34,173 nt of DNA from a virus. Positions 1,691 to 34,173 of the stretch are shown here, piece after piece (the stretch's first letter is position 1; each line of letters starts with the position of its first letter). The notes beneath the pieces were generated by a model that was given only the letters and a program-made list of their open reading frames with translations, was not told where the DNA came from and did no database searches. Location: positions 1 through 34,173 of the IMG/VR virus record IMGVR_UViG_3300046492_000243; one strand, written 5' to 3'. The position numbers and the translations under genes are program-made.

Positions 1691-1807
1691 ATGTCCACCA
1701 CTCCTGCGCCGGCCAATCCAAAGGTTGGCTTTGTATCTCTGGGTTGCCCTATTGATTATAAAAATATACGGCCAGGTGCCCATGGAGTGTTGAGCAAACC
1801 AAGCTGA
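1691..1807 (+). pseudogene. rimO: rimO 5' fragment cut off by prophage insertion
   Basis: The ATG at 1691 with a GAGG upstream starts MSTTPAPANPKVGFVSLGCP, the N-terminus of RimO, the MiaB-family methylthiotransferase acting on ribosomal protein S12. After the Cys-Pro codons the frame enters phage DNA, reads 18 unrelated residues and stops at 1805-1807. The continuation of rimO ([12 protein letters not shown]) is found at 33526 onwards. The fragment contains one conserved N-terminal cysteine but no radical SAM domain, so the 38-residue product cannot be an enzyme. Confidence 0.92.
1745..1749. other. attL core (left prophage junction)
   Basis: TGCCC here is shared with 33521-33525. Left of it the sequence is rimO coding DNA; right of it the sequence becomes AT-rich and non-rimO. 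Joining the left arm here to the right arm after 33525 restores a continuous rimO frame. A short core with little flanking identity is usual for large serine integrases, whose crossover is within a 2-base overlap; the exact dinucleotide cannot be fixed from this sequence alone. Confidence 0.85.
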
Positions 1808-2255
1808 TAAAAAGGGGGACATTCTTTTCGCCTGCTCCATTACTGCCGTGTTCGTCCCCTACTGAATCCCACATGGCCGTACCGGGGATGCCTGGTCAAA
1901 TCAGTCGCAAACAGCCGAAAAGCTCCCCATTCCCGCAGCCCAGCAGATCGAGGCCTCCAGCCCACACTGCTACAATAAAAAACTCATATTGCTTTTTTTG
2001 AAGACGCCCCCCCATTCAAGAAAAAATCTCAACAAAGCCCAGCCCTAACGTTCAGAAAGATCCAACATCTGAGCATCCCGCGATAGACTGGATCGGTTAA
2101 CCGCTGTCGCAAACTGGGTCAGCCTCAAATGAGCAATCGGTTGCGTCGTGATAACACTAGTGACAGGATGCAATCGATTAGCAAATCTTATAGTTTGAGA
2201 AAAGAATTAAGAGATGTGTCGCGATGAACAGCTCGACAATAGAAAAGGAACATTC
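1808..2255. other. AT-rich left-end non-coding region
   Basis: I see no convincing gene here. It holds two imperfect inverted repeats: GGGGAC (1815-1820) against GTCCCC (1854-1859), and TTTTTTTGAA (1993-2002) against TTCAAGAAAAAA (2015-2026), the latter able to act as a terminator in either direction. The attP left arm and the promoter of the cargo gene must lie in this stretch, but I cannot assign them. Confidence 0.5.
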
Positions 2256-3548
2256 ATGAGCTTGACATTCATTAAATCTGCAAAATACCCAACTCCCTTG
2301 GATACATTTGGATTTAAGCTTGAAACAATCCCAAACATCAAAAACTCTTGTCTTTTCGTTTTGGATGCGAATGTACTACTACTACCATATGGCGCAGATG
2401 CCAGCAGTTTAAATGCAATAAAAACCGTTTATCAAAAGCTATCGACACAGAAGCGTTTATTCATTCCTGCCCAGGCAGCTAGAGAATTTTTCGACAACCG
2501 CTCCAAGAAGCTCGCAGACATTCACGAACTTTTGTCAAAAAAAATGAACCAAAGTTTTCAGTTCATTTCTAGCCACCCATTCCTTAATGAAATAACCGAG
2601 TTCAAAACGGTAATAGAAAAAGAAAATCAGCTAAAAGACCTGATGAAAGATTATAGAAAGGCAATAACGAAAACCCTTGATATCATTCAATCTTGGGGAT
2701 GGGATGATCCCGTTAGCAAGATGTATCATGAAGTTCTTTTTAATTGCGTTCTTTCCGGTTCAGAAATTTGTGAAAAAGAAGTCGAAGCCGATCTAGCCCG
2801 ACGAAACAGCCTCAAAATACCGCCAGGGTATAAGGATTCAGGAAAGAGCGAGAACCAAGCTGGTGATTTGTTGATTTGGCACGAACTGCTTCGCCTCGGA
2901 TCAACCAACAAACAGCATGTGATCTTCGTTTCTGGGGACGAGAAGGCAGACTGGTGGCATCAGAGCGGGGGTAAAAACCTGTACCCTCGATTTGAACTTG
3001 TAGATGAGTTCAGAACAAAAACCGAAGGAAGGTCATTTCATATCATCAGTCTTTCAGACCTCTTAAGGATTTTCAACGCGGACGCAGATGTAGTAGATGC
3101 AATAGAAACAACAGAGCGGAACGCTTTTATCTCAACGTCTACATCATCGATTCATAACGACATAATAGTTCCAACCATACTAGGCATCATCCACCATTTA
3201 AAGTCACTCATCAGGGAATACGATGTGGAGATGATGAGGAATCAATCTGAACGTATGACCGCCATGCGAGTAGCGAGTGAAGAAAACAAGCCAGATGTAT
3301 GGCACGCTTTTAACGAGCTAGATAATGTTGCAAATAGAAAGTTAATGAACGCGTATGAGAACATCAAGATGGACGTATTACTTCACCGCGATGGCTTTCT
3401 GGAATCACTACCTACATCCATCTTACTTAAAAGATCTAAAAAAATCAGCAATGCGTATGAACGCCCAATTAACAGTTTTGGAGTTGAAACTGTGATCAAT
3501 GATCTCGAATACCTAGCTAAGAGCTATGAGGACTCTGATTTCTATTAA
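2256..3548 (+). CDS. PIN-like domain nuclease (PIN_8 type), probable cargo or defence gene
   Basis: The 430-residue product has the acidic pattern of PIN-fold ribonucleases: FVLDANVLLLPY (D37), REFFDNR (E77), GDLLIWHELL (D204) and VIFVSGDEKADWW (D228). The closing PRFELVDEF resembles the standalone PIN-like family often labelled PIN_8. The region after about residue 270 is not recognised. I chose the ATG at 2256 because AAGGAA sits 6 bases upstream; an in-frame ATG at 2214 has no such site. The gene is visibly AT-richer than the phage and host around it, stands alone, and lies at the attL edge, where temperate phages often carry exchangeable cargo. A role in anti-phage defence is inference from family and position; the RNA target is unknown. 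Confidence 0.7.
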   Translation: MSLTFIKSAKYPTPLDTFGFKLETIPNIKNSCLFVLDANVLLLPYGADASSLNAIKTVYQKLSTQKRLFIPAQAAREFFDNRSKKLADIHELLSKKMNQSFQFISSHPFLNEITEFKTVIEKENQLKDLMKDYRKAITKTLDIIQSWGWDDPVSKMYHEVLFNCVLSGSEICEKEVEADLARRNSLKIPPGYKDSGKSENQAGDLLIWHELLRLGSTNKQHVIFVSGDEKADWWHQSGGKNLYPRFELVDEFRTKTEGRSFHIISLSDLLRIFNADADVVDAIETTERNAFISTSTSSIHNDIIVPTILGIIHHLKSLIREYDVEMMRNQSERMTAMRVASEENKPDVWHAFNELDNVANRKLMNAYENIKMDVLLHRDGFLESLPTSILLKRSKKISNAYERPINSFGVETVINDLEYLAKSYEDSDFY

Positions 3549-4272
3549 ATTGAATTGACTCAAAACATATCCAGCCGGTATTGCCTGATTAACCATTACT
3601 GCGTAGCCGCTGAAAACTTTTATTGGGTCTTTTGAAAACATCAGACAAATGCCTAGTGACTGCGGGTTAAGCCGCGGTTGTCGGCGAATTTCCAGGCAGT
3701 ATCAGGCATGGTTTCAGCAGCCCTCGAGGGGCCAGGGTTAATGATCCTCATTCGTTCGTACGAAGAAAAAATATGCAGCGCCCTGATCACGGTACAAGTC
3801 AAGCGGGGCGTCGCCTATGGGGAAGTTCTCTTCTTAACCGACACGTAAGTTTTACTATGAAAATTGATAGAGCTCGTTTATAAAAATTGACAAACCCCAT
3901 GATTTTTCAGATTCCGCCCAATAAAATCGGGTGTTCCACCACAGCCCGTTCGCTTCGACGCCTTGGGCCGATGTGCAACCGCACTTCATTTCTTATCAAC
4001 ACTTTGCATTCTGTGAAATTTCCGGCCGCATGCCGAGCCCCACAGCCGGCTTGGGCTGGAGATTCGTTTACACCTCAACCGGAATTGCAAAAAAAAAGGA
4101 CACAAAGCCCGTCGGCGGGAGGGGGATAAGTGCTTTTTCAACAGATTTTTTCTTGGCTGCAGGATTTTTCGCAAAAGGATCATCCGCAGGCATCTTGCAA
4201 GGCGAGCTTGTCTCCAGCGATCGCCAACTGCCGTCAGTCGCTCTGGTGATGCCGGGGCTTGCCTCGCTCGAT
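3549..4272. other. Non-coding region between cargo gene and SOS operon
   Basis: Open frames here are short, lack good ribosome binding sites and show no recognisable family, so I call no gene. The only notable feature is an A-rich run near 4089 followed by a small GCCCGTCGGCGGG hairpin-like element. Confidence 0.4.
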
Positions 4273-4294
4273 ATACTGTTTGCATATACAGTAT
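4273..4294. promoter_or_regulatory. LexA (SOS) box
   Basis: ATACTGT-8-ACAGTAT is a perfect 7-base inverted repeat and gives CTG-N10-CAG, the LexA box of gamma-proteobacteria. It lies 23 bases before the start of the following small operon, so repression by LexA and release after DNA damage are expected. Confidence 0.85.
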
Positions 4295-4316
4295 ATTTAC
4301 AGAGTAGACATGGCCG

Positions 4317-4568
4317 ATGATTAGAGAATCTGGGGCATCCGTTACGCCGGAGCCGTTCGGGATAGCGCAGTGGCGGTCCATGCTGCGCGATGAGGTGTCA
4401 TTGCTCGCAATGCCTGGCGCCCATCACAAGGCACTAATGAGGCAAGCACATGCACTGCACCAGGGCAAAGTGATCGATGCTGACGAACTCGGTGACTTCT
4501 TGGAGTTAGCGGACGCGGCGCTGGCCTATGCGGTCGAATCGCTACTTGACCTCGCCGATGACGATTAG
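4317..4568 (+). CDS. Small SOS-controlled phage protein, unknown function
   Basis: An 83-residue acidic protein with EPFGIAQWRSMLRDE near residue 12 and a helical, acidic C-terminus ending in LADDD. I do not recognise a characterised family, though the sequence has the look of short proteins found behind LexA boxes in Pseudomonas prophages (impression from memory, not checked). It has no signal peptide or membrane segment. The stop is 8 bases before the start of the next gene, so the two form an operon under the LexA box. An ATG at 4310 is out of this frame and closes after five codons. Confidence 0.7.
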   Translation: MIRESGASVTPEPFGIAQWRSMLRDEVSLLAMPGAHHKALMRQAHALHQGKVIDADELGDFLELADAALAYAVESLLDLADDD

Positions 4569-25981: not shown

Positions 25982-25994
25982 GGTGATTATCACC
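25982..25994. promoter_or_regulatory. Palindrome before ogr-like gene
   Basis: GGTGAT-T-ATCACC is a perfect 13-base palindrome 47 bases before the start of the zinc-finger activator gene. It may be an operator for that gene; no second copy was found. Confidence 0.35.
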
Positions 25995-26040
25995 ATAGGT
26001 GACGGCATAATGATGGCTCTGAAACCCTGGGGAGGGAACC

Positions 26041-26301
26041 ATGCGAATCTACTGCACTGCCTGCGACTACAAAGGACGTATCAGTTCACGGGAGGAAATT
26101 ACTCGTGGCTATGTGAAGCTCTACTGCCAGTGCCTGGACGCGAAGTGCGGGCACACTTGGGTATCCGAACTTACATTCAAGCATTCCTTGAGACTTCCAG
26201 CCCAACACCTCGACACACTCCTTCTAGAGAGAATCAGAAGTTTGCCGGCGGATCAGCAGCAAGAACTGTTCCTGCAGGTCGGCTCCTCGCAACCAGGCTG
26301 A
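26041..26301 (+). CDS. ogr: Ogr/Delta-type zinc-finger late activator
   Basis: An 86-residue protein with Cys5-X2-Cys8-X22-Cys31-X4-Cys36, the spacing of P2 Ogr and P4 Delta zinc proteins, followed by a short helical tail. GGAGGG lies 4 bases before the ATG. In P2 the protein contacts the RNA polymerase alpha subunit to start late transcription. Its target here should be the divergent region at 22968-23129. An additional cysteine (C29) lies next to the motif. Confidence 0.85.
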   Translation: MRIYCTACDYKGRISSREEITRGYVKLYCQCLDAKCGHTWVSELTFKHSLRLPAQHLDTLLLERIRSLPADQQQELFLQVGSSQPG

Positions 26302-26590
26302 CCCAAGTACCCTGTTCGCAACATCCTCGACGCGCCCCAGCCTCCCCGCTCTCGTGGCCCCACTGCACATCTCTCAACACCCACACCGGAATGCCTGCAG
26401 CGCAGGCATATAAGCCGCCTGCACCATCTCAGCTGATACCCACAACTCTGGCGCGGCGGAACCCGCGCAGCGGCCGGTGGTCTGACAATTTCGCCCCAAA
26501 AATCTCAGCCGCGCCGCCCGATCGTGCCCGCGACCGCCGCTCGCAAATTTCGATTGCACCTCGGCGCGCCCAATTACTGCTTTTGACGCC

Positions 26591-26673
26591 TGCTGGATCC
26601 ACGGCACTGGGTGCCGGGTATCCAGCACCGGGTGCAGGGCACTGCCCTGCCGCTGGGCGGGCGCGTAGCCCGC
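26591..26673. repeat. Cluster of three hairpins
   Basis: Three hairpins follow each other: TGCTGGAT ... ATCCAGCA (26591-26627) with an inner CGGCAC-TGG-GTGCCG; GCAGGGCA-C-TGCCCTGC (26634-26650); and GCGGGC-GCGTA-GCCCGC (26657-26673), followed by an A-rich run. The group could terminate transcription from the ogr side or be a replication or packaging signal. Confidence 0.6.
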
Positions 26674-26772
26674 GATCCTCATAAAAAATCTGAGCGCAGC
26701 GAACTGAGCCCTTGGGCGAAGGCATCATCTTGGACCCAACACACCGACCCTGTGGACACCTCGAAAGCCTCT

Positions 26773-26809
26773 TTTTATACCCAACGGGGGTGCTGAAGGG
26801 GGTATAAAA
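26773..26809. repeat. Inverted repeat TTTTATACCC / GGGTATAAAA
   Basis: Perfect 10-base arms at 26773-26782 and 26800-26809 with a 17-base spacer, next to an AT-rich stretch and 14 bases after a DnaA-box-like sequence. A binding site for the replication initiator is plausible. Confidence 0.5.
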
Positions 26810-27006
26810 TTCCATTTAATTCAAAGGCTTTCTGGTTGCCCCGTTTGCGCGCCGGCGGCGCGACTAAATCGCGCTGTAAAGGAGGCGTACACATGGCCGA
26901 TTGCCGCCATGGCGATGCACGGCGGGAGGTTGAGTGCTGAGATAGGATGTTTTCTCGACTGCCAGACGTAGCCTGGCCTCGCAGGGGATGCGATCGTGTC
27001 AGGGGG

Positions 27007-27912
27007 CTAGGTGTCTTTCTTGACCTGGATGCTGCGCATCAGGCGCGCCAGAGATTCGTCCACGCCACCAGGCCTACTGTCGGGTGCCTGGGAAGCCCTA
27101 ACACGACCGGGTGAATTGACCTGCTCTGGCATCTCCCCCTGGCTGTGAGCCACCTTGCGTGCCTCACTACGTTCCCAGTTAGTACGTGACTTCTCGCGCC
27201 GTAAGGCTTCCAGGGACGCCTTCTCCTGACGCGCTAGGCGAAGCCCGCTGATGTCACGCAGCTCCTTTTCACGCTTCTTCAGCGCGGCCTTTTTCGCCCG
27301 ATGCCAGAGGTACCGTACACCGAGGTCAGCAAAGAACTTTTCAGTGAATCGCACCAGGACACGAGTTCGCACCAGGTTAAGTCCAGCTTCGTCCTTTTCA
27401 TCCAAGCGAATTTTCTCGACGCGCCGGTAAACATAGTCGGCCAGTTCCATGCTGTGCAGCAGGCGGTTGAAGGACGCAGCAGAGACGCCGCTATCCTCTG
27501 CGACACCGCACTGGGTGTTGAGGAAAAACTGCCCCCGCTCGACGTCGAGCCATCCCATAACGCCTGTCGCCAGATCCAGGCGTAGAAGCATCTGCTCGGC
27601 AACCTTAGCCAGCGCATCGAATTTCTCAGAGCGTGTACGGCGGCCACCGTGAATGGTGTCCAGATCGCGTAGGTACATACCGCGCAGGTCGCCGATTTGG
27701 CTCAGGCGCTTGAACGCCATCCGCAGAAGGGGGTTTTTGAGCTGCTGGCCAGTCAACCGGCGGGGAGCGGAATACCGGGGTGCGCGAGCAGGCGCTCGCA
27801 GAGCCGCGTGGGGATCTTTCTTGTCGCGATGCACAGCAGTAGGTCGGCCATTTCTGGGGCCGGCCTTGCGGTCGCTCGTTCGCGATTTGATGTCCTTATC
27901 CGGCGGAGTCAC
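27007..27912 (-). CDS. IncFII RepA-like replication initiator
   Basis: A 301-residue basic protein. Residues 60-225 resemble plasmid IncFII-type RepA proteins (RLSQIGDLRGMYLRDLDTI; KFDALAKVAEQMLLRLDLAT; DSGVSAASFNRLLHSMELADYVYRRVEK; VLVRFTEKFFADLGVRYLW), a winged-helix initiator for theta replication. The N-terminus is Arg/Lys/Pro-rich and the C-terminus is charged and probably disordered. It overlaps the previous gene by 4 bases and so is expressed from the cro promoter as an early lytic gene. P2-like phages normally use a rolling-circle gpA instead; none is present here. Confidence 0.75.
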   Translation of the reverse strand: MTPPDKDIKSRTSDRKAGPRNGRPTAVHRDKKDPHAALRAPARAPRYSAPRRLTGQQLKNPLLRMAFKRLSQIGDLRGMYLRDLDTIHGGRRTRSEKFDALAKVAEQMLLRLDLATGVMGWLDVERGQFFLNTQCGVAEDSGVSAASFNRLLHSMELADYVYRRVEKIRLDEKDEAGLNLVRTRVLVRFTEKFFADLGVRYLWHRAKKAALKKREKELRDISGLRLARQEKASLEALRREKSRTNWERSEARKVAHSQGEMPEQVNSPGRVRASQAPDSRPGGVDESLARLMRSIQVKKDT

Positions 27913-28541
27913 AGGCGGGTATTCACCTGTTGCAGGATAGGTTTCTGGTGCTGCTCGAGCAGCACGTCTTCGGCACGCGAGCGAAGCTCACAGCACCGCG
28001 CTTCGACTGACCGGAGCCTATCGACAAAGCTAGGTAGCTTGTCGATGTCTTGGAGGTCGATATGACCGTCTGCAAGGATCTCGCTGCCCAGGGCAACTGT
28101 ATCGCCCAGCCTGGCCACGAGCAGGCCGAACGCACACAGCGGATTGCCGTCACCTTCCTGCTCGCGTGCGCCAGTCAGACCGTGACGACTGGCAAGCTCA
28201 TTGATGCAATCGTCTTTGAATTCGCCGTCAAGAGCTTCTACCCAGGCCTCTTCAAGCCAGCACGGCAAATCCACCTCGCCGTTGAGCCAGCGGCCAACAC
28301 GACGCAGCCAGGCCCCTGATGCTCTCAGAAACGCCGGCGCGTCGTTGCCCTTGGCCAGTTCGTCGAAATCGGGCACGTCCTTGCTAGCAGCCTTGTCTGG
28401 AACGATGCGATGCAGATTGCTGCTTAGTAACTGGGCAAAGTCGTCCTGGCTGAAACCGGTGCGCGCGATCATCTCAACGGCATGGGCCACCAGCACCTGA
28501 TCACGGGACATGGACATCTGTCCTGGATTGGACGTGTTCAT
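27909..28541 (-). CDS. Early protein between cro and repA, unknown function
   Basis: A 210-residue acidic protein, overlapping cro and repA by 4 bases on each side. The first 60 residues have a helical, HTH-like look (MSRDQVLVAHAVEMIARTGFSQDDFAQLL), and the last 50 are a coiled coil (DRLRSVEARCCELRSRAEDVLLEQ). I recognise no family. Coupling to repA suggests a replication accessory or regulatory role, which is inference. Confidence 0.65.
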   Translation of the reverse strand: MNTSNPGQMSMSRDQVLVAHAVEMIARTGFSQDDFAQLLSSNLHRIVPDKAASKDVPDFDELAKGNDAPAFLRASGAWLRRVGRWLNGEVDLPCWLEEAWVEALDGEFKDDCINELASRHGLTGAREQEGDGNPLCAFGLLVARLGDTVALGSEILADGHIDLQDIDKLPSFVDRLRSVEARCCELRSRAEDVLLEQHQKPILQQVNTRL

Positions 28542-28795
28542 ACGAGCTTCTGCCCAATAACCTGCGAGTCACCACCAGCGGTCCCGCCCCCTAACTGGGG
28601 CGTAGGAAGGACTTTGTTTGATGGAAATGGGCGCAGTTCTTCAGCTGTGTAGGAGCCATCAGCGTGCACAGACACGATGATTTTCCGACCCAACCTGATT
28701 GCCTTATGTACGGCAGCGGGAGTGACCCCGAAGGCTTCCGCAACCGCTGCCTGACCAATTTTGGCGGCTAATTCAGACAATGAGATTTGATTCAT
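28538..28795 (-). CDS. cro: Cro-like repressor
   Basis: An 85-residue protein whose first 62 residues closely follow lambda Cro: a helix-turn-helix (GQAAVAEAFGVTPAAVHKAI), then GRKIIVSVHADGSYTAEELRPFPSNK, matching Cro's beta strand region and C-terminal segment. The ATG at 28795 fits the Cro start. It is divergent from cI across 181 bases holding the operators and is the first gene of the early operon. Confidence 0.88.
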   Translation of the reverse strand: MNQISLSELAAKIGQAAVAEAFGVTPAAVHKAIRLGRKIIVSVHADGSYTAEELRPFPSNKVLPTPQLGGGTAGGDSQVIGQKLV

Positions 28796-28827
28796 AACAG
28801 GGCATCTCTGGGTAGACGCCACAATAT

Positions 28828-28907
28828 TAACCTGAGGTATCGTCGGCCGCAACAGAAAAGATACCTGGGGTATTTTTATGGACTCTGTAATAAGAAACCT
28901 TGGGTAT
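28828..28907. promoter_or_regulatory. Three CI/Cro operators between cro and cI
   Basis: Three 13-base sites are TAACCTGAGGTAT (28828-28840), ATACCTGGGGTAT (28861-28873) and AAACCTTGGGTAT (28895-28907), spaced 33 and 34 bases start to start, about three helical turns. A weaker fourth (28928-28940) keeps the same spacing. The dyad consensus is ATACCTNAGGTAT. The arrangement recalls the triple operators of lambda OR, though spacing is wider. Confidence 0.8.
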
Positions 28908-28934
28908 TTTACGAACGGTCACTAACGATGCCGC

Positions 28935-28957
28935 AGGTAAATTATTTTAATTTACCT
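28935..28957. promoter_or_regulatory. 23-base palindrome before cI
   Basis: AGGTAAATTA-TTT-TAATTTACCT is a perfect 10-base-arm palindrome 19 bases before the cI start. It includes the same ACCT/AGGT half-sites as the operators but with wider spacing and an AT-rich centre, so it may be a different site or part of the cI promoter. Confidence 0.6.
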
Positions 28958-28976
28958 CCGGTTTATCATTGCCCCC

Positions 28977-29696
28977 ATGAATAAGAAGCCACCCCTTCCC
29001 CCCGAGCTTTTCGATGAGTGCAAAGCTGCCAACGAGCTCTACCTCTCGAAGAAAAAAGAACTCAACTTAAACAAGCGAAAGATTGCCGATGAAATCGGCG
29101 TGAGTCCTGCTGCAGTGGCTCACTACCTGAACGGCATCAACGCACTGAACATCAAGTTTGCGTCCGCCTTGGCAAAGCTTTTGGGCGAGCCAGTTGAAAA
29201 GTTCAGCCCGCGTCTCGCTGCGGAAATTTCGGGGCTTGCGGCAACCACTGGGCATGCCAATGTCAGCCCAATGCTGCAGCCATATAGAGACGGCAGGGAA
29301 TATCCGCTAATAACTTGGGTAGACGCTGGCCAAGGGATCGAGTCGTTAGCCAGTTACCCGTCGGGCATCTCTGACGAGTGGCTTAGCTCTACGGAAAATG
29401 CTGGTCCAAAGGGCTATTGGTTGAGGGTCAAGGGCAAATCCATGACCTCTGACAGCCACCCTACTTTTCCAGAAGGCACACCCATCCTGATCCGTCCTGA
29501 GGGCTTTGATGTCATCAGCGGGAAATTTTATGTTGCTCGAAACACTGTCAGTGGAGAGACGACATTCAAGCAGTACACGATGGATGCGGGTGTCGGTTAC
29601 CTGGTGCCGCTCAATCCCAGCTATCAACCGGTTGTACTGGACGGCAACTGGGAAATCATCGGCCGGGCGATCGACGCCAAAATCACCGGAATGTAG
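28977..29696 (+). CDS. cI: CI-like repressor with S24 self-cleavage domain
   Basis: A 239-residue lambda-type repressor. The N-terminal HTH is at about 33-58 (KRKIADEIGVSPAAVAHYLNG). The C-terminal LexA/S24 domain shows the cleavage pair Ala117-Gly118 (WVDAGQG), the nucleophile Ser155 (VKGKSM) and the general base Lys198 (GETTFKQY). RecA-stimulated self-cleavage and SOS induction are therefore expected. It is divergent from cro and followed after 23 bases by a gene that probably shares its transcript. Confidence 0.92.
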   Translation: MNKKPPLPPELFDECKAANELYLSKKKELNLNKRKIADEIGVSPAAVAHYLNGINALNIKFASALAKLLGEPVEKFSPRLAAEISGLAATTGHANVSPMLQPYRDGREYPLITWVDAGQGIESLASYPSGISDEWLSSTENAGPKGYWLRVKGKSMTSDSHPTFPEGTPILIRPEGFDVISGKFYVARNTVSGETTFKQYTMDAGVGYLVPLNPSYQPVVLDGNWEIIGRAIDAKITGM

Positions 29697-29719
29697 CCAG
29701 TGCCAACCAAGGAAAAATC

Positions 29720-30271
29720 ATGTTCATAACGCAACCAGGTAATCCAGCATTAGCTTATGTGGAGGATTTCTGCCGGTACGTAGCTCAAGATCAGGTCCCC
29801 ATTGTCATCCCGTACAAACCGCTGGTTGGCAAGCCACAGAACGAATGTTTCAGCATCGTTCCAGAGCAAGTCGTCGCTGAGGGTGGAAAACAGCTGATAG
29901 GCTGGGCGATCTGGGAGACTTCCGGTCTGTACATCGAGGCCGAGTTCCACACTGTCTGGCAAGATCCACAAGGGAACCTTATTGACCTGACTCCTCGTCG
30001 CTACCAATTCGAGACCATCCTCTTTCTGCCCGACCCTCGCCGAGAATATCGCGGCAGACAGGTCGATAACATCCGTCGCCCGCTGGTGGATGATCTGGAC
30101 GTAATTCGCTTTCTGCACCTCGCAACAAGGCGCTTCGAGATACTCAACAAGGGCGACTTGGCCGATCAACATGGAGAACTCGCCCTTCCACCCCGTGTCC
30201 TGCGGGATTACCGGAAGGTAGAAAAGGAAGTGATGCAGCTTCAACATCGGCTTATTCGCCGCTACGAGTGA
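29720..30271 (+). CDS. Lysogeny-expressed gene behind cI, unknown function
   Basis: A 183-residue soluble protein. The central part (GGKQLIGWAIWETSGLYIEAEFHTVWQDPQGNLIDLTPRR) resembles a widespread uncharacterised motif with GW.IWE and EFH.VW.DP.G.L.D.TP. The C-terminal third is basic and helical. AAGGAA is 6 bases before the ATG, and only 23 bases separate it from cI, so it should be expressed in the lysogen. Such genes often modify the host or exclude other phages; that is inference. The enzymatic nature is unknown. Confidence 0.65.
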   Translation: MFITQPGNPALAYVEDFCRYVAQDQVPIVIPYKPLVGKPQNECFSIVPEQVVAEGGKQLIGWAIWETSGLYIEAEFHTVWQDPQGNLIDLTPRRYQFETILFLPDPRREYRGRQVDNIRRPLVDDLDVIRFLHLATRRFEILNKGDLADQHGELALPPRVLRDYRKVEKEVMQLQHRLIRRYE

Positions 30272-30309
30272 AGTAGCCCCGATGCTGCGCGGCTTCTGAA
30301 TCAATGTTT

Positions 30310-30609
30310 TCATGATGGCACCTGCTGGGCACGTTTACGCGGCTCAGGTGTATTCTGTATGTCTAGACCTGGTGGTGCGCTATGGACCACGATATGGCCC
30401 TGCCCGATCTTGAAGTTCTTGATCACCGCGATGCACACGTTCCACGCCTCACGCGCCACCGCTTCGCCAGATTCAACCACGTTGCCCTGGTCATCGATGA
30501 TCGCCAGGCGCGCAGGCCGGCCATCCGCTGTGGTGAACTTGTAACCGCTGGTGACGTTGGCAGCGATACGGCCATTTTCCAAGGTTCCTGTCTCCGGGAT
30601 ACCGATCAT
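30310..30609 (-). CDS. Third gene of second CI-type operon, unknown
   Basis: A 99-residue protein, beta-rich (GYKFTTADGRPARLAIIDDQGNVVESG) with no recognised family. Its ATG overlaps the stop of the preceding gene (ATGA). It ends 38 bases from the convergent plus-strand gene. Its place in an operon under phage operators suggests early lytic expression. Confidence 0.65.
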   Translation of the reverse strand: MIGIPETGTLENGRIAANVTSGYKFTTADGRPARLAIIDDQGNVVESGEAVAREAWNVCIAVIKNFKIGQGHIVVHSAPPGLDIQNTPEPRKRAQQVPS

Positions 30610-30842
30610 GGCCGTGTTCCTTGTTCAGTTTGGTCCGTGTACTTGTTTACGATCAACGCGATGGTATTTGCGTGCGATGCCCGATCGATCTGGGCGCTGT
30701 CGATAGCCGGCCAATTCTCGGATTGGATAGCAGAATCGATACCCAAGTTCGCGCTTCTCCAACCCGACACGCTATGCGAAAGGATCTGCCTGTCTTGCTC
30801 TGAAAAGCCGGCCAATATCAATAGGAGCTGAGAGTTGGTCAT
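30606..30842 (-). CDS. Second gene of second CI-type operon, unknown
   Basis: A 78-residue small protein, starting at ATG 30842 with AAGGAG 6 bases upstream and overlapping the preceding stop (ATGA). It contains a helical FSEQDRQILSHSVSGW segment. No family recognised. An ATG at 30848 is also in frame but lacks proper spacing. Confidence 0.65.
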   Translation of the reverse strand: MTNSQLLLILAGFSEQDRQILSHSVSGWRSANLGIDSAIQSENWPAIDSAQIDRASHANTIALIVNKYTDQTEQGTRP

Positions 30843-31378
30843 TGCCACTCCTTGATTTCGCGGACGAAATTGGAGAGCAGGTCGTAGGCTTTATCAGGAT
30901 CTGCGGGCATCAGCGCCGGAGCCGAAATACCGGCACCACCCAATAAAAATCTGAAATACGTCTGTTCTGGATTCTCAGCGGCTGTTGTCAGTAGCAACCT
31001 CAGGTCATGCATTCCCGACTGCGGCAACAGATAGAGTCCACGGCGGCTTGTTGCAGCATTGCGCAACAAGAACTCCAGATCCCGATCGAGGATAGGCTGG
31101 GCCATACGTTCGTAATGCACGTTGGCCAGCTCTTCTACGAACTGCTCGACCCTATGAGCCGTATCGCCCTGAAGGCCGAGGGTAAGCGTGTTTACCGTCT
31201 CACCCAACCGGACCTGCACAGCAACGTCGGAACCACATTGCTCGATCGTCAAATTGGCTAGGAGAAAACTCGGTGCGTAGTTGCAGACGAGAGGAAGGGG
31301 GAACACGCCGTTCTGTTTGACGTGCTCTGCCAGCTGCGCTCTGGCTTCAAATGAAAGGCTAAAGGTAGGGCGAATCAT
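30839..31378 (-). CDS. First gene of second CI-type operon, unknown
   Basis: A 179-residue protein. The ATG at 31378 has a perfect GGAGG 9 bases before it; an ATG at 31435 in the same frame does not. The protein has a beta-rich N-terminal half (FLLANLTIEQCGSDVAVQVRLGETVNTLTLGL) and a helical C-terminal half ending LLSNFVREIKEW. No family recognised. It lies 62 bases downstream of three operator sites, the same sequence as at cro/cI, so repression by CI in the lysogen is expected. Confidence 0.7.
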   Translation of the reverse strand: MIRPTFSLSFEARAQLAEHVKQNGVFPLPLVCNYAPSFLLANLTIEQCGSDVAVQVRLGETVNTLTLGLQGDTAHRVEQFVEELANVHYERMAQPILDRDLEFLLRNAATSRRGLYLLPQSGMHDLRLLLTTAAENPEQTYFRFLLGGAGISAPALMPADPDKAYDLLSNFVREIKEWQ

Positions 31379-31439
31379 GCGGTTGACCTCCGTTGAAATC
31401 AGGACACCACTTTGGGTTCCTGAGTTGACGGACATAGAT

Positions 31440-31825: not shown

Positions 31826-33445
31826 TCAGTCCCAGTCTTCGCTGGCGACCCATTCACCCGTCTTCCGGCTGATCTGCAAGAGCCTGTGCTGACCGGTACG
31901 GGAAAGCAGTTGCACATCAATAAACTTGCTCTTGCGATCCTCGTCGCCCATCCCTCGCATATAAACCACGATCCGCTGGAAGGTATCCATGACCAACTGG
32001 CGCACCTTTTCCCTGGCTGCGTAGTCACCCACAGCGACGAGGGCAGCCAGTTCTGTCCATTGCTCATGCTGCGCTGGCTTGCCAGAACCAGCCGCTACCG
32101 CTAGTTCGTATTCAATGCTCGCCACATTCCTTTCTGCATCAAGCTGCTGCGCCTCCAGCTCGCGAGCTTTACGCACGAAAGAAACCGGCGCGGGGCCGTC
32201 ATCATCTGCAAGCAGAGCTGCGGTGACTTTTTCGAGTTGGTCCGAAATTTTTTGTACCGCAGCCCGCGCACCCACCAGTTGATGGCGAAGGCCTTGACCA
32301 TCGTCACCAAGCTGCATCAATCGCTGCAGGTTGAGGCGGTCAGAGCAGAAGTTCAGCAATGCTTTCTCAATCGGGACCACGCTGCACGAACCACCGGAGC
32401 CGCAGCCGTCGTTTCGGCTGTATGACACACAATGCAAGCGGCGATGGCCGTCTGCGAGCGTGCCGTCAGCACGGGCGCGGCTCATATAGTTCTGTCCAAT
32501 AACGGCGGTACCGCAATAGCCGCAGTACGTCAGGCCGATGCCAGTGATAATCCCTGGAATCTCGCCTTTCATCCTGCGCCGTAATCTTTGGCCACCCATG
32601 TGCTGCAACTCGGCCCATTCCGTTTCCGACAATAGCCGTGGGTAGTAATCCTCAAGGACAAACTCCTCACCCTCAACTGTCAGGCTCTTGGCTCCTCGCA
32701 GTGCCTTGAGCTTGATCATCCGGTAGATCTGCAGAGTGGTAATTCCAAGGTCGCTGTAACTCAGCCCCTCGTCGTGCAAGATACGAACTGCGCGAGCTGC
32801 CCCCATCCCCTCCAGATACAGTTGCAGAGCTCGACGTACGGTAGCAACTCGCTCAGGAATAAACTCCCATTCGGTACCAGTCCACTTGAGCCACTGAGGA
32901 TCTTTGCCGTTGCGGATCTGCCCCCGATAGGTGCCAGCCTGCCAAGCCTCGCATAGTCGCCGGATCGAGGCCTTCACTCGCTTGCTCTTAGTATCCGACT
33001 CTTCGTGAGCGCGGATCATGACCAGGAGCGAGTAAACAAGGTCCATCGGCTGGGCCTTCAACCCGGCACGGTTGTACTCCCGGCCGTCACTGGCGGTCAC
33101 AACGGTTATGCCGGCATTGATAATTTGCGCAAGTTGGGCTTGAGCCTGGATCGGCTCAGCACGGCTCAAACGATCCAGTCCTTCCACGACCAGGACTGAG
33201 CCGGACGCGATTCGCCCTTCCTCGATCGCCACCAGGAAAACCCCGAGGGCTCCCTGGGTAATGTGGCGTTGGTGATATGCGGATAGACCTTCGTCACGCA
33301 TGGATAGCGAATCGTCGAGCACCAGGCCTTTTTCAGCAGCCCACTTCTGGGCGTACTGCAACTGACGATCGGCGCTACCACCGGTGGACTGTCGAGGGTC
33401 TGAGAAGCGCAAATAGCTGTATACTCGCGCACCGTTTTTAGCCAT
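31826..33445 (-). CDS. Large serine integrase
   Basis: A 539-residue site-specific recombinase. The resolvase domain begins RVYSYLRFSDPRQ, with catalytic Ser15, followed by a GLDRLSR region and an Arg/Ser-rich helix E area. The recombinase domain spans about 160-300, then a zinc ribbon (CGYCGTAVIG ... CVSYSRNDGCG) and a coiled-coil part around residues 370-440. GTA-rich start choice: ATG 33445 gives the usual MxxxxxRVYSYLR start; an ATG at 33472 is also in frame. It ends at the attR side and is divergent from the rebuilt rimO start only 31 bases away. It should catalyse attP x attB integration in rimO; the needed excision factor is not identified. Confidence 0.92.
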   Translation of the reverse strand: MAKNGARVYSYLRFSDPRQSTGGSADRQLQYAQKWAAEKGLVLDDSLSMRDEGLSAYHQRHITQGALGVFLVAIEEGRIASGSVLVVEGLDRLSRAEPIQAQAQLAQIINAGITVVTASDGREYNRAGLKAQPMDLVYSLLVMIRAHEESDTKSKRVKASIRRLCEAWQAGTYRGQIRNGKDPQWLKWTGTEWEFIPERVATVRRALQLYLEGMGAARAVRILHDEGLSYSDLGITTLQIYRMIKLKALRGAKSLTVEGEEFVLEDYYPRLLSETEWAELQHMGGQRLRRRMKGEIPGIITGIGLTYCGYCGTAVIGQNYMSRARADGTLADGHRRLHCVSYSRNDGCGSGGSCSVVPIEKALLNFCSDRLNLQRLMQLGDDGQGLRHQLVGARAAVQKISDQLEKVTAALLADDDGPAPVSFVRKARELEAQQLDAERNVASIEYELAVAAGSGKPAQHEQWTELAALVAVGDYAAREKVRQLVMDTFQRIVVYMRGMGDEDRKSKFIDVQLLSRTGQHRLLQISRKTGEWVASEDWD

Positions 33446-33463
33446 TAGAAAAAAGACCCTGAT

Positions 33464-33481
33464 GAGGATCATCCTATGATG
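33464..33481 (+). promoter_or_regulatory. Phage-supplied RBS and start codons for rimO
   Basis: GAGGA at 33464-33468 is 7 bases before ATG 33476, followed at once by a second ATG at 33479. All of this is phage DNA, 40 bases before the crossover, so translation of the rebuilt rimO depends on phage sequence. Confidence 0.75.
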
Positions 33482-34173
33482 ACAGTAAAAGCCCCGCGTG
33501 TAGGAATGATATCGTTAGGGTGCCCGAAAGCACTGGTCGACTCCGAGCGCATCCTGACTCAGCTGCGCATGGAAGGTTATGACGTGGTGTCCACCTATCA
33601 GGACGCCGACGTTGTAGTCGTCAACACCTGCGGTTTCATCGATTCGGCCAAGGCTGAGTCGCTGGAAGTGATCGGCGAAGCGATCAAGGAAAACGGCAAG
33701 GTGATCGTCACCGGTTGCATGGGCGTGGAAGAAGGCAACATCCGCAACGTCCACCCGAGCGTGCTGGCCGTGACCGGCCCGCAGCAGTACGAGCAAGTGG
33801 TCAACGCTGTGCACGAAGTGGTGCCGCCGCGTAAAGATCACAACCCGCTGATCGACCTGGTGCCGCCGCAAGGCATCAAGCTGACCCCGCGTCACTACGC
33901 CTACCTGAAGATCTCCGAAGGCTGCAACCACAGCTGCTCGTTCTGCATCATCCCGTCGATGCGCGGCAAACTGGTCAGCCGTCCGGTCGGTGATGTACTC
34001 GACGAAGCTCAGCGCCTGGTCAAATCCGGCGTTAAAGAGCTGTTGGTGATCTCGCAAGACACCAGCGCCTACGGCGTTGACGTGAAATACCGCACCGGCT
34101 TCTGGAACGGCGCGCCGGTGAAAACCCGCATGACCGAACTCTGCGAAGCCCTGAGCACCCTCGGCGTCTGGGT
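33476..34173 (+). CDS. rimO: RimO, rebuilt with phage-encoded N-terminus; 3' end outside window
   Basis: The radical SAM methylthiotransferase that modifies Asp88 of ribosomal protein S12. Phage DNA encodes residues 1-15 ([15 protein letters not shown]); from the Cys-Pro codons on it is host rimO ([12 protein letters not shown]). The N-terminal MTTase domain has cysteines in SLGCPKA, VNTCGF and VTGCMG; the radical SAM motif CX3CX2C is at [14 protein letters not shown]. The native leader at 1691 encodes VGFVSLGCP, so the phage copy conserves the first beta strand. The gene has an open frame to the window edge. Confidence 0.93.
33521..33525. other. attR core (right prophage junction)
   Basis: TGCCC shared with 1745-1749. 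To the left is phage DNA that mimics the rimO 5' end, to the right is genuine rimO. The integrase gene lies 76 bases to the left, the normal place of int beside attP. Confidence 0.85.

Follow-up and report, generated by a model that had tools for sequence, protein, structure and literature searches.

A PIN_8 nuclease gene in the cos-proximal cargo slot of a P2-like Pseudomonas prophage is a candidate single-protein anti-phage system

The prophage and its left-end gene

The window analysed here is an entire IMG/VR virus record of 34,173 bases. Judged by its sequence, its core is a P2-like (Peduoviridae) temperate Pseudomonas prophage, with a DNA identity of ~74-81% to Pseudomonas phages UFJF_PfPro and phi3 in the structural genes. 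The prophage splits a host gene that we take to be rimO from reading the sequence and from general knowledge, without a database match; the remainder of this gene at attR carries a radical-SAM CxxxCxxC motif. The features relevant to this study are as follows.

1691 to 1752, plus strand: attL, passing from the 5' stub of rimO (MSTTPAPANPKVGFVSLGCP) into phage DNA, with the junction at ~1741-1752; an identical stub occurs in the sister prophage L019/G392
2256 to 3548, plus strand: PIN_8 nuclease gene, 430 aa, with predicted catalytic residues D37, E77, D204 and D228 (Pfam, alignment, AlphaFold, VIA-align)
2349 to 3095, plus strand: predicted PIN core with helical insertion, residues ~32-280 (Pfam 33-248; AlphaFold pLDDT mostly >90; VIA-align rows 24-276)
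3096 to 3545, plus strand: C-terminal part, residues ~281-430, predicted helical at low confidence (AlphaFold, comparison of relatives)
3963 to 4155, no strand: conserved cos block of 193 bp, with the cohesive end GGCGGGAGGG at 4114-4123 (matched to both ends of the linear record PQ412991, UFJF_PfPro)
31826 to 33472, minus strand: large serine integrase, 548 aa (phrog_95, E 4.6e-58; relatives found)
33475 to 33535, plus strand: attR, a new rimO 5' end from the phage fused to host rimO (KALVDSER...), as read in the sequence

Because the start of rimO lies at the left and a replacement start at the right, the integrase appears to insert into the 5' end of rimO, with the phage supplying a substitute. 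Although the prophage splits rimO, the new 5' end brings a start codon of its own, and lysogens should therefore retain a working gene. The early region (25983-31435) encodes a CII-like activator and a CI-type repressor and has no recognisable P2-like gpA replication gene; the phage thus seems mosaic, combining P2-like structural genes with another early module.

The PIN_8 gene is the sole substantial open reading frame between the rimO/attL junction (~1741-1752) and cos (4114-4123), and its GC content of 40.5% (GC3 41.8%) compares with mostly 53-65% in the other genes of the window. An earlier sequence-only reading had described it as solitary and deviating in base composition, and both observations hold. 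The same reading was wrong in calling the region non-phage: the stretch belongs to the phage itself, being its variable segment near cos, and contains the conserved cos block. An alternative upstream ATG is present at 2214, and the start at 2256 is favoured by homologues and by an AAGGA ribosome site. No clear promoter precedes the gene, and 1752-4114 holds no open reading frame of antitoxin size with a credible ribosome site.

A split PIN nuclease core

The Pfam family PIN_8 (PF18476) matched residues 33-248 with an E-value of 4e-37 and 128.8 bits, far above the cut-off of 26.1, and the profile was covered over the full domain (positions 1-227 of 227). PIN_12 / DUF4935 (PF16289) also matched, more weakly. 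When 46-47 relatives taken from genomic and viral contigs were aligned, D37, E77 and D204 were invariant and D228 was present in at least 90%. N39, R183, P189, P190, G191, D194, W208, K230 and W233 were likewise invariant in the PIN_8 alignment, and D228 and D232 were nearly so. The protein thus shares the conserved residues of PIN_8 as well as the N-terminal placement of the domain.

The AlphaFold model of the 430-residue protein has a mean pLDDT of 80, with block means >90 over most of residues 21-290, and the four acidic residues fit its beta/alpha order. The core is split in sequence: the first beta strand with D37, and E77, are followed by ~125 residues that form mostly helices, and then by D204 and D228. 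The best VIA-align matches of the model were PIN domains, namely Rrp44 of the exosome (Z 9.8), PH0500 (9.7) and Nmd4 (8.9), followed by F-plasmid VapC (8.8), PAE2754 (8.3) and protein-only RNase P (8.2); some of these names are our reading of the entries. The structure alignment did not include L120 and L025. Foldseek alone gave a weak result against the PDB (best E 0.4, not significant), plausibly because the PIN fold is interrupted by the long insertion between E77 and D204, and its best viral match was another PIN-like protein (E 3.5e-3). A search by sequence for relatives of solved structure yielded none that was convincing.

Together, profile, alignment and model indicate that the first two thirds of the protein are a PIN_8 nuclease domain. 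This agrees with the sequence-only reading, which had proposed a PIN-like nuclease from four acidic residues including D37 and D228 and had named structure prediction as a check, with the absence of a nuclease fold counting against it; the predicted model is instead closest to PIN domains.

An exchangeable C-terminal part

The last ~130 residues are predicted to be helical with pLDDT of 45-72. Over residues 31-282, the core shares 59-61% identity with those of L002, L003 and L025, whose C-terminal parts are unrelated (8-11%). The closest relative, in genome G733, is 65% identical in the core and 30-31% in the C-terminal part, barely above shuffled controls (mean 23%, maximum 29.6%). Within the family, this C-terminal part is seen only in that relative, and used alone as a query it found no relative in the viral contigs. 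Many other C-terminal parts occur among PIN_8 relatives, including a PcrA/UvrD tudor domain in two, which hints at a connection with RNA polymerase or DNA repair for those proteins. The tudor carriers are probably L077 7941-9125 and L081 7962-9164, as assigned by eye.

From these alignments, close relatives differ by exchange of the C-terminal part, and this part changes faster than the core. A constant nuclease with an exchanged, fast-changing tail would be expected if the tail senses or targets something.

The cos-proximal slot

Parts of the conserved block match the two ends of the UFJF_PfPro record, both of which carry GGCGGGAGGG, placing the cos site at 4114-4123. The PIN_8 gene lies 562 bp from cos, between attP and cos in the virion and between attL and cos in the prophage. 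When viral contigs were scanned, the cos sequence turned up in at least 80 loci, and we took a census of 54 of these for proteins of at least 130 aa located 100-2200 bases from cos. Content was variable, with 76 proteins in 49 clusters among the matches listed. Known defence genes include AbiLi (E 2.6e-91) with AbiLii (E 4.2e-28) in L188, AriA with AriB (PARIS) in L138, and DUF4238-Pers in L133. Other genes in the listed loci encode OLD/AriA-like ATPases (L165, L197), a BsuBI/PstI restriction enzyme, DUF4435 and DUF3800, and a response regulator, a phosphatase and a DnaJ protein occur there without an evident defence role.

The sister prophage G392 has an integrase 100% identical to that of the window and the same rimO stub, and in its attL-cos slot a DUF4238 gene replaces the PIN gene. 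The PIN gene was not found in the eight closest integrase relatives searched, several of them fragments, with the slot read directly in five. A second serine-integrase phage (G825, integrase 73% identical) carries its own PIN_8 gene, which has the same orientation and lies 419 bp from cos. At 25% identity, common inheritance of the two genes is unlikely, and PIN_8 has probably entered the slot twice, on separate occasions.

Two observations concern neighbouring cargo. SRAP (SOS-response-associated peptidase), UmuD-like and UmuC-like genes lie across cos in the sister prophage G392 (L019, reverse complement 1973-4470), forming a second cargo position in these phages. Another prophage beside kup, at the rimO site, has at L193 8206-9216 a gene for an unassigned protein of 336 aa, located 368 bp from cos; it has no Pfam or PADLOC match and is one more candidate for defence.

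The sequence-only reading had interpreted the gene as cargo at attL and suggested looking for other cargo in related prophages, with conservation as a core gene in all relatives as the outcome against it. That the gene was not found in the integrase relatives searched, and that DUF4238, AbiL and PARIS occupy the same slot, support cargo over core. That reading of the slot is right but incomplete: this cargo position next to cos belongs to the phage itself, and the precedent to set it against is the hotspot of P2, not a generic attL position. In P2-like E. coli phages, the position adjacent to cos is described as a hotspot for anti-phage genes, from which one DUF4238 protein, acting alone, confers strong resistance to T7 (Rousset et al. 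2022, PMC9122126). The likeness to the P2 hotspot (old/tin) lies in an accessory gene adjoining cos in a variable segment of a P2-like phage, with AbiL, PARIS and DUF4238 defence genes in the relatives' slot. The present case differs in being a Pseudomonas phage with a serine integrase and in a slot bounded by attP and cos rather than gpA and gpQ; the text of PMC9122126 does not mention PIN.

PIN_8 genes in other mobile elements

Of 398 genomes in the genus to which G149 belongs, read as Pseudomonas from its kup/rimO region, 27 contain some PIN_8 relative, one of them full length at 52% identity (G733). This homologue sits in an unrelated prophage, between what we take, from reading the genes, to be an integrase remnant and lysis genes, with a presumed lambda-like tail-tip gene in the same prophage. 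The PIN_8 copies of L003 and L025 also adjoin integrases. With PIN genes and integrases located by profile and family searches in 34 viral contigs of at least 30 kb that have a tyrosine integrase, 11 PIN_8 genes lay within 1.5 kb of the integrase compared to 3.6 expected at random placement (p ~0.0005, related contigs not being independent). Enrichment at contig ends was weak (p ~0.04-0.12) and we do not rely on it.

PIN_8 genes occur in ~70 viral contigs, on plasmids and in bacterial genomes, and tblastn of the protein against 50,697 phage records found no relative. No evident partner gene lies beside the homologues in L120 and L203. PADLOC has no model that matches the window protein, and its relatives give only weak, scattered matches. 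Our literature search found no published test of PIN_8 and no paper naming PF18476; the DUF4935 paper that it returned is a genome survey, and the function of the PIN_8 family is not established in the searchable literature.

A proposed role in anti-phage defence

We consider it reasonably probable that this gene encodes a prophage-borne, single-protein and probably autoinhibited PIN RNase that serves in anti-phage defence. The sequence-only reading had proposed an anti-phage or toxin role. The slot, with the defence genes of relatives and the P2 precedent (PMC9122126), strongly suggests the anti-phage half; the toxin half, in the toxin-antitoxin sense, is not supported, there being no antitoxin partner. 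Against defence stand the lack of a PADLOC match, the slot genes without an evident defence role, the lack of a clear promoter and the low-confidence C-terminal model.

In the mechanism we propose, the PIN_8 core, with an Asp/Glu metal site and split by the helical insertion, would be held inactive in the uninfected lysogen. Since one protein without an antitoxin must stay harmless there, autoinhibition relieved by infection would be the simplest arrangement. The C-terminal helical part or the insertion may sense something made or altered by the infecting phage, and the activated core would then cleave RNA (tRNA, rRNA or mRNA, like other PIN RNases), causing growth arrest or cell death (abortive infection) before the rival phage matures. 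Members of the matched PIN families are RNA-cutting enzymes, which makes cleavage of RNA, ending in growth arrest or abortive infection, the likeliest outcome.

A close functional precedent is DS-3, a single-protein PIN system from DefensePredictor that has no antitoxin and requires its catalytic residues for defence (PMC13092281); DS-5 is a further PIN system from the same work. Compared by description only, DS-3 resembles the window protein as one protein without an antitoxin whose PIN domain is split in sequence. It differs in that its split runs between the N and C terminus, whereas both halves lie within the N-terminal two thirds of the window protein.

Three other roles can be set against defence. 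The protein might act for some other host trait, such as RNA turnover or the stress response, as a lysogenic-conversion gene with no part in defence. Slot genes without an evident defence role would fit this, but known defence genes are frequent in the same slot, PIN_8 is sporadic in Pseudomonas (27/398 genomes) and PIN_8 genes lie near integrases, so that we regard this role as unlikely. The proximity of the fold to F-plasmid VapC (Z 8.8), the shared catalytic acids and the location of a small accessory gene on a mobile element would suit a free-standing VapC-like toxin or addiction gene that stabilises the prophage and is not triggered by phage. Unlike VapC, however, the window protein has no adjacent antitoxin gene, as no neighbouring frame of antitoxin size with a credible ribosome site occurs in the slot; the L120 and L203 homologues also lack an evident partner, and the protein, three times as long as VapC, contains a helical insertion and a C-terminal part in addition. 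We hold this to be distinctly unlikely.

The remaining role, service in the phage's own lytic cycle through host RNA shut-off or counter-defence against tRNA- or RNA-based immunity, seems to us very unlikely. The gene is phage-encoded and PIN_8 is found in viral contigs, but it was not found in close relatives with the same core genome, it lies outside the structural operon, and the tblastn search drew its blank among phage records even though relatives exist on plasmids and in bacterial genomes. Anti-phage defence by a single PIN RNase is the reading that we prefer.

More tentatively, PIN_8 as a whole may be a broad, uncatalogued family of one-gene phage defence systems, carried by prophages beside cos or the integrase, in which a constant autoinhibited PIN RNase core is combined with exchangeable C-terminal sensors.

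The window protein offers a specific and testable candidate for a widespread, uncharacterised nuclease family, with residues to mutate and a part to swap. The cos-proximal hotspot of E. coli P2 has a counterpart in P2-like phages of Pseudomonas, including a serine-integrase branch inserted in rimO. If the C-terminal parts are sensors, their exchange on a constant core would provide a direct route to the triggers of single-protein systems.
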